Part shown: one piece after another, positions 17,413 through 60,489 of the stretch
How positions within the stretch are numbered: the first letter of the stretch is position 1
How the letters are laid out: every line of letters starts with the position of its first letter
Source: Eutreptiella sp. 'Long Island Sound 2002'
Taxonomy: Eukaryota; Euglenozoa; Euglenophyceae; Eutreptiales; Eutreptiaceae
Length of the DNA: 64,000 nucleotides
Direction: 5' to 3'
Assembly: GCA_964036045.1 (NCBI GenBank)
Contig: OZ038379.1
Coordinates: 186,954,495-187,018,494, forward strand
The notes under the pieces: model-generated
Told to the model about the DNA's origin: nothing
Databases searched by the model: none
The model's input: only the letters and a program-made list of their open reading frames with translations
Translations under genes and position numbers: made by a program

Positions 17413-17778
17413 GGACTTGCGGTTCCACAACGTCAATGCGGCGCACGTCCCGGACTGCCTGCGCGACTTCCCCCTCGAGAGCCTGGACATGTACGTGGCC
17501 AACATGAAGTTCCTCTGCCGACCGCCCGTGGCCATCGCCAAACTGCACCGGCTCCTGGACGACACGGCCCTCGGGGGGGCCCTGCGGGAGCTGGTGCTGG
17601 ACGGCTGGAACTGCGAGGCGGTGCCGGACTGCCTGCGGGGCCTGCGGCGCTTGCGGCTGCTGTCGCTGCAGTGCTGGTTCGAGCTGAGCGCCCTGCCGGG
17701 CTGGCTGGCGGAGGTGCCGTTGGAGGTGCTGAGCGTGGTGAACACCAACGTGGGGGCCCTGCCGCGCTCGTTCTCCAA
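17413..17778 (+). CDS. Exon 1 (first recognised): leucine-rich repeats
   Basis: The acceptor is TTTGTGCAG at 17404-17412, followed by DLRFHNVNAAHVPDCLRDF. Repeats of ~23 residues follow the L..L.L......P..L..L pattern: ALRELVLDGWNCEAVPDCLR, LRRLRLLSLQCWFELSALPG and LEVLSVVNTNVGALPRSF. The donor is TCCAA|GTGCGC at 17778, phase 2. GC content is much higher than the neighbouring DNA. The frame is open back to 17120, so the exon start could lie further upstream. LRRs precede the catalytic domain in fungal Cyr1 adenylyl cyclases as well. Confidence 0.8.

Positions 17779-60489: not shown

Follow-up and report, generated by a model that had tools for sequence, protein, structure and literature searches.

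The window, by which we mean the whole stretch of 64,000 nucleotides analysed here from Eutreptiella sp. 'Long Island Sound 2002' (phylum Euglenozoa), is eukaryotic DNA in which long introns, satellites and remnants of transposons occur. Its + strand carries nine exons, A to I (33954-60511; Table 1), which eight GT-AG introns of consistent phase join into a single open chain, and, further upstream, LRR exons. We consider it probable that exons A to I belong to a single gene whose product consists of a membrane domain of the Amt type, a short linker and a class III adenylyl cyclase, in other words a one-piece putative ammonium receptor cyclase, and that the LRR exons are separate from it. The initial annotation had joined LRR-like, Amt and class III cyclase pieces into one gene; their GT-AG borders and fitting phases do lie on the + strand, roughly where it had placed them.

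Table 1 Features of the LRR and Amt-cyclase genes in the window
Feature	Positions	Strand	Description
LRR exon, separate 5'-incomplete gene	17413..17778	+	C-terminal LRR part; tblastn with P0115
Last recognisable LRR-gene exon	19742..20024	+	residues 408-489 of P0116 match 19743-19976
Polypyrimidine tract and AG	33914..33933	+	20 bases before the Amt ATG; candidate acceptor (5'-UTR or trans-splice)
In-frame TGA	33951..33953	+	directly before Amt ATG 33954 (sequence)
Exon A	33954..34189	+	start ATG and N-terminal part of Amt; ends in phase 2
Exon B	34978..35248	+	Amt with HWVW and LDFGG; F107 equivalent is L
Exon C (tentative)	35586..35708	+	Amt segment GVINILG; H168 equivalent is N; phase 0 fit
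Exon D	37768..38016	+	Amt, GWYGLMLGH; F215, N216 and S219 equivalents altered
Exon E	39841..40044	+	Amt, FAVHGCCG; H318 equivalent retained
Exon F	43040..43390	+	uninterrupted; final helix of Amt, then linker, then beginning of the cyclase (FTDI)
Exon G	47351..47500	+	cyclase, VKTVGDEF; alternative donor 47545
Exon H	50708..50979	+	cyclase, TDYFGRDVNYASR; best tblastn E 5e-27, with P0003
Exon I	59788..60511	+	C-terminal end of cyclase and low-complexity tail; stop 60512-60514 if read on

With exon I taken to 60257, the translation of the nine exons contains no stop, and their GC3 is 0.777 against an overall GC of 0.53-0.62 in the eight introns. In the 860-residue join that runs to 60511, Pfam recognises a whole-domain Amt/Mep match (Ammonium_transp, PF00909; 5.7e-50, residues 23-397, profile positions 2-385 of 399) followed by Guanylate_cyc (PF00211; 6.3e-19, residues 433-594). 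Because the last Amt helix and the FTDI motif both lie inside the uninterrupted exon F, the fusion is independent of any splice. Judged from the sequence, the fusion is real and one polypeptide carries both an Amt and a class III adenylyl cyclase; this part of the initial annotation is supported by exon continuity and by eight full or partial relatives.

Two parts of the model are less firm. Exon C is the weakest exon, since a profile of its segment does not recover it at E<=10; its donor is uncertain, with an alternative at 35786. No missing histidine exon was detected in the intron between B and D, either by motif (35249-37767, + strand) or by a six-frame profile, a search which leaves exon C itself non-significant. 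The 3' end of the gene is likewise uncertain: the chain ends at 60489 in the earlier model and at 60511 if exon I reads on to its stop.

The window also holds repeats and transposon-like sequence, and a search against Rfam gave no match at gathering scores. Long degenerate 85-base tandem arrays occupy 9-4761 and become nearly perfect (94% matches) at 4224-4761. A 686-residue open frame at 5135-7195 has a weak C-terminal SAP-like match below the Pfam cut-off. A C-rich 32/64-base tandem array follows at 7583-9649 (GC skew -0.55 over 8001-10000), and then five copies of a 312-base tandem repeat at 10105-11670 (96% matches), whose unit length is divisible by 3 and most of which is spanned by an open frame (10075-11319). 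A segment of 1,191 bases at 25397-26587 is repeated in tandem at 26590-27780, the two copies being 99.9% identical. An ORF lying nearly all in the first copy (25377-25835) matches part of DDE_Tnp_4 below cut-off, and most of its translation is repeated by the ORF at 26468-27028. A further ORF of 264 residues (53097-53888), within the 8.8 kb of intron that separate exon H from exon I, matches the DDE_Tnp_4 endonuclease at 3.8e-8.

A family of Amt-cyclase proteins

Two of three protein searches returned, between them, eight relatives with the same two domains (P0001-P0005 and P0019-P0021; 582-781 residues), and Pfam confirms Ammonium_transp and Guanylate_cyc in all eight. Scoring in each search was confined to the 8,000 candidates with most words in common, so that the relatives number at least eight and the family may be larger. 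When the eight fusions were compared with the window by tblastn, every exon but C was recovered in homolog order; P0005, a partial protein, has no match to exon I. The matching segments of P0001 illustrate this well (48-90, 86-186, 233-313, 318-386, 381-486, 470-529, 506-619 and 619-667): the gap at 187-232 corresponds to exon C, and the other segments begin near the end of the one before. Residues 624-672 of P0003 match 59786-59929 (E 3.6e-8) and directly continue exon H. The junctions 40044/43040 and 50979/59788 are matched on both sides and in order by homologous fusions.

The sources of several relatives can be assigned. P0003 is named as Eutreptiella gymnastica, a euglenid, and P0005, P0020 and P0021 carry EG_transcript ids, a numbering which PMC6776534 applies to Euglena gracilis. 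The same paper mentions a Euglena ammonium transporter, EG_1810, an id absent among the present relatives. P0001 includes an MMETSP transcript and P0019 carries a GGOE transcript id. All relatives of assignable source are euglenid (Eutreptiella, Euglena).

In an Amt tree of 94 rows, made up of the window, the eight fusions and 85 other Amts after 2 of 96 matches spanning at most about 300 residues had been dropped, the window and the eight fusions form one clade (100/100). The end branch of the window Amt is long (1.88). Its identity to the eight relatives is 31.5-37.2% in the Amt part and 50.6-54.2% in the cyclase, compared with 47.5-90.9% and 59.6-90.4% among the relatives themselves; in most pairs of relatives, too, the cyclase is better conserved than the Amt, by a smaller margin.

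In the cyclase, D441, K480, D484, D563, N570 and R574 are intact in the window and in all eight relatives; we take D441 and D484 to be the metal-binding aspartates, K480 and D563 the residues specifying adenine, and N570 and R574 those stabilising the transition state, as in class III cyclases generally. The closest solved catalytic domain is that of the trypanosome structures 1fx4/1fx2, both for the window chain by sequence (E 3.2e-26) and for the predicted model of P0003 by fold (6.7e-12); sequence comparisons with P0003 and with the family profile give the same result. The chain encodes a predicted class III adenylyl cyclase with all six checked catalytic residues.

Scans for such fusions outside eukaryotes were made once per collection, with patterns from the Amt part, and fusions lacking those patterns would escape them; all 20 confirmed loci in prokaryotic genomes and all 16 viral ones match only query residues 1-443, the Amt. 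A literature search, largely outside subscription papers, turned up no account of an Amt fused to a cyclase. Sequence databases already contain the eukaryotic Amt-adenylyl cyclase architecture under automatic names. The components, and the principle of an Amt serving as a receptor, are known, and it is this eukaryotic architecture that is undescribed in the literature searched.

Pore residues and possible function

We checked the equivalents of nine pore residues in E. coli numbering (F107, W148, D160, H168, W212, F215, N216, S219 and H318). For all but W148, N216 and S219 the numbering follows PMC10433425. All nine are present in each of the eight relatives. In the window five are changed (F107>L, H168>N, F215>L, N216>M and S219>H) and W148, D160, W212 and H318 are retained, and the canonical set of Phe gate, twin-His and S1 site is consequently incomplete. 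H168>N lies in the tentative exon C and is not independently supported; the other four changes lie outside it.

Such replacements are not in themselves the mark of a sensor, since in 12 of the 85 other Amts F107, F215 and S219 are all replaced (by A or S, W and G, respectively) with no domain beyond Amt listed. Deviation at four or more of the positions is seen in three of the 85 (P0098, P0102 and P0111), one of which, P0102, is an Amt-kinase by precomputed domains. P0013 and P0102, Amts with extra C-terminal regions, have lost S1-site residues (W148 and S219, and in P0102 also H318), possibly in parallel with the window copy. Whether the window chain, the family profile or P0003 is compared by sequence, the closest solved Amts are Ks-Amt5 (6eu6) and Sd-Amt1 (8qj3, 8qpf), ahead of AmtB. 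The AlphaFold model of P0003 (mean pLDDT 80.4, pTM 0.68) agrees, its fold being closest to the sensor Ks-Amt5 and the receptor Sd-Amt1, before AmtB; a first, weaker model gave a similar result.

With its Phe gate and S1 serine lost, and perhaps its first pore histidine, the window copy may sense instead of transport, and from its sequence we think it more likely to be a sensor that does not transport. More generally, we infer that the Amt-cyclase is an ammonium receptor that makes cAMP. The Amt part would bind ammonium on the outer face of the membrane and change conformation; by analogy with Ks-Amt5, the C-terminal linker would relay this change, as it does in bacterial Amt receptors, and the resulting shift could alter the pairing of the cyclases and with it the output of cAMP. 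Such coupling needs a solution of symmetry, as Amts are trimers and class III cyclases act as dimers.

It is tempting to go further and suggest, at somewhat short of even confidence, that euglenids carry a family of one-piece cAMP-making ammonium receptors, the eukaryotic equivalent of Amt sensors in bacteria, and that its member in the window has abandoned the transport pore and acts purely as a receptor, within a lineage that has also fused other nutrient-binding modules to such a cyclase. If this is true, the cell would turn ammonium outside directly into a cAMP signal inside. Because the Amt and the adenylyl cyclase lie in one polypeptide, known from transcripts of culturable algae, their coupling would be directly testable in vitro, and the architecture would pose the question of how a dimeric enzyme can be driven by a trimer.

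The long branch and the five altered pore positions, together with transposon and satellite sequence within the introns, could also be read as loss and not specialisation, the window copy then being a paralog that is in decay or without function while the rest of the family works. Nine exons free of stops and frameshifts, a high GC3, six intact cyclase residues and a cyclase still 51-54% identical to its relatives make decay unlikely.

The relatives themselves raise a different question. Since all nine checked residues are kept in every one of them, they may simply transport, and external ammonium sensing by eukaryotes has been argued mainly through transceptors; fungal Mep2 reportedly acts as one upstream of cAMP-PKA, a link to cAMP that is indirect. 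An Amt-cyclase family of this kind would transport ammonium and let flux or the state of the pore, rather than binding alone, set the cyclase. Against this stand the several pore residues lost in the window copy and the example of Ks-Amt5 which, according to PMC10433425 and PMC5764959, keeps its Phe gate, twin-His and S1 site yet does not transport. We regard a transceptor as quite improbable, and favour the one-piece receptor.

LRR exons and the start of the Amt-cyclase gene

The LRR exons, some 14 kb upstream of the Amt start, are most likely a separate gene. Position 17413 follows an acceptor (ttctttgtgcag/GG) and not a start codon, which marks this gene as 5'-incomplete. Its 196-residue piece is not recognised by Pfam on its own and owes its identification to two close relatives, P0115 (504 residues; 54% identity over 100%) and P0116 (508 residues; 50% over 99%), of which P0116 passes the Pfam cut-off for both LRR_8 and LRR_4 and P0115 scores below it for both. 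By tblastn, residues 285-419 of P0115 match 17411-17827 (50% identity, E 1e-24). Neither P0115 nor P0116 yielded a convincing upstream exon in 1-17410 at up to E 10. With the first 284 residues of P0115 thus lacking a convincing match in the upstream 17.4 kb, the LRR gene is either incomplete here or interrupted by a still longer intron.

Both relatives lack Amt and cyclase domains, and they end 26 (P0115) and 22 (P0116) residues past the conserved GLVING at the proposed junction, although as predicted proteins their ends could be read-through. In the window, if the possible donor 19966 is left unused, the exon containing the conserved AASGLVING gives GLVING and 18 further residues before a TAG at 20022-20024. 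No convincing short last exon like the tail of P0116 was seen among the matches listed. Furthermore, none of the eight matches to the LRR piece lists an Amt or cyclase domain (candidates up to about 1,480 residues), and a Pfam LRR is found in none of the eight Amt-cyclase relatives.

The start of the Amt-cyclase gene points the same way. From ATG 33954 the chain begins MSFEVNVTNPVNDLLVST, which aligns with the N-termini of the relatives. In three of the eight, homology by tblastn extends upstream of 34012 (P0004 to 33996, P0005 to 33975 and P0019 to 33957), and the matches of the remaining five begin farther in. The starting Met lies 33-52 residues before the Pfam Amt match in six relatives and 22 in the window model; P0020 and P0021 begin inside that match and may be truncated. 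Upstream of the ATG, 19 of the 20 bases before AG 33932-33933 are pyrimidines, a count equalled or exceeded at 6 of the window's 3,337 AGs, this one among them. Spliced-leader trans-splicing is known in Euglenozoa, and the short leader before ATG 33954 would suit it.

The junction 19965/34012, by which the initial annotation had brought the LRR into the same polypeptide, was not confirmed, the homology of three relatives entering the supposed intron. A good-consensus donor at 19966 (gtaagc) and the phase-compatible AG 34012 do give an open join; of three acceptors tried 34012 is the only stop-free one (stops follow after six residues at 33934 and within six at 33951), and its 12 pyrimidines in 20 equal the counts of the accepted exons E and F. 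Nevertheless, a single LRR-Amt-cyclase gene, in which the LRR would contribute the binding of a ligand or control by a partner, was rejected as very improbable, given the missing LRR in the fusion relatives, the separate ends of the LRR proteins and the TGA 33951 directly before ATG 33954.

Comparison with known systems

The one-piece receptor that we favour has its nearest parallels in bacteria. In Ks-Amt5 of Kuenenia stuttgartiensis (PDB 6EU6), PMC5764959 describes an Amt module to which ammonium binds but through which it is not transported, and which controls, inside a trimer, the kinase fused to it. The arrangement of an N-terminal Amt domain followed by a C-terminal cytoplasmic signalling enzyme in one chain is that of the window protein, in which the two are joined in exon F, and of its eight relatives, and among Amt structures Ks-Amt5 ranks first when the window chain is compared by sequence and when P0003 is compared by fold. 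It differs in being bacterial, in having a histidine kinase as output and in keeping the pore residues, several of which are gone from the window copy. Sd-Amt1 of Shewanella denitrificans (PDB 8QJ3, 8QJ4, 8QPF), likewise bacterial, is an Amt receptor with OFF and ON states according to the entry titles, and heads the Amt structures in sequence comparisons with the family profile and with P0003. Its C-terminal effector is presumably a diguanylate cyclase.

For the cyclase, the parallels lie closer to home. The Trypanosoma GRESAG4.3/4.1 proteins (PDB 1FX4, 1FX2), whose catalytic domain is the closest solved one to that of the window chain, are receptor-type adenylate cyclases from the same phylum, Euglenozoa; their sensor, however, is a periplasmic-binding-protein-like ectodomain on one helix and not an Amt. 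LRR and class III cyclase occur in one chain in P0006 of Symbiochloris and in fungal Cyr1, both without an Amt, whereas here the LRR most likely belongs to a separate gene. Finally, Euglena EG_transcript_658 (P0011, Peripla_BP_6-cyclase) and EG_transcript_913 (P0012, PBP_like_2-cyclase) join a nutrient-type sensor to a related cyclase, with a solute-binding module in place of the Amt. Given these fusions, the joining of nutrient sensors to cyclases looks like a habit of the lineage.
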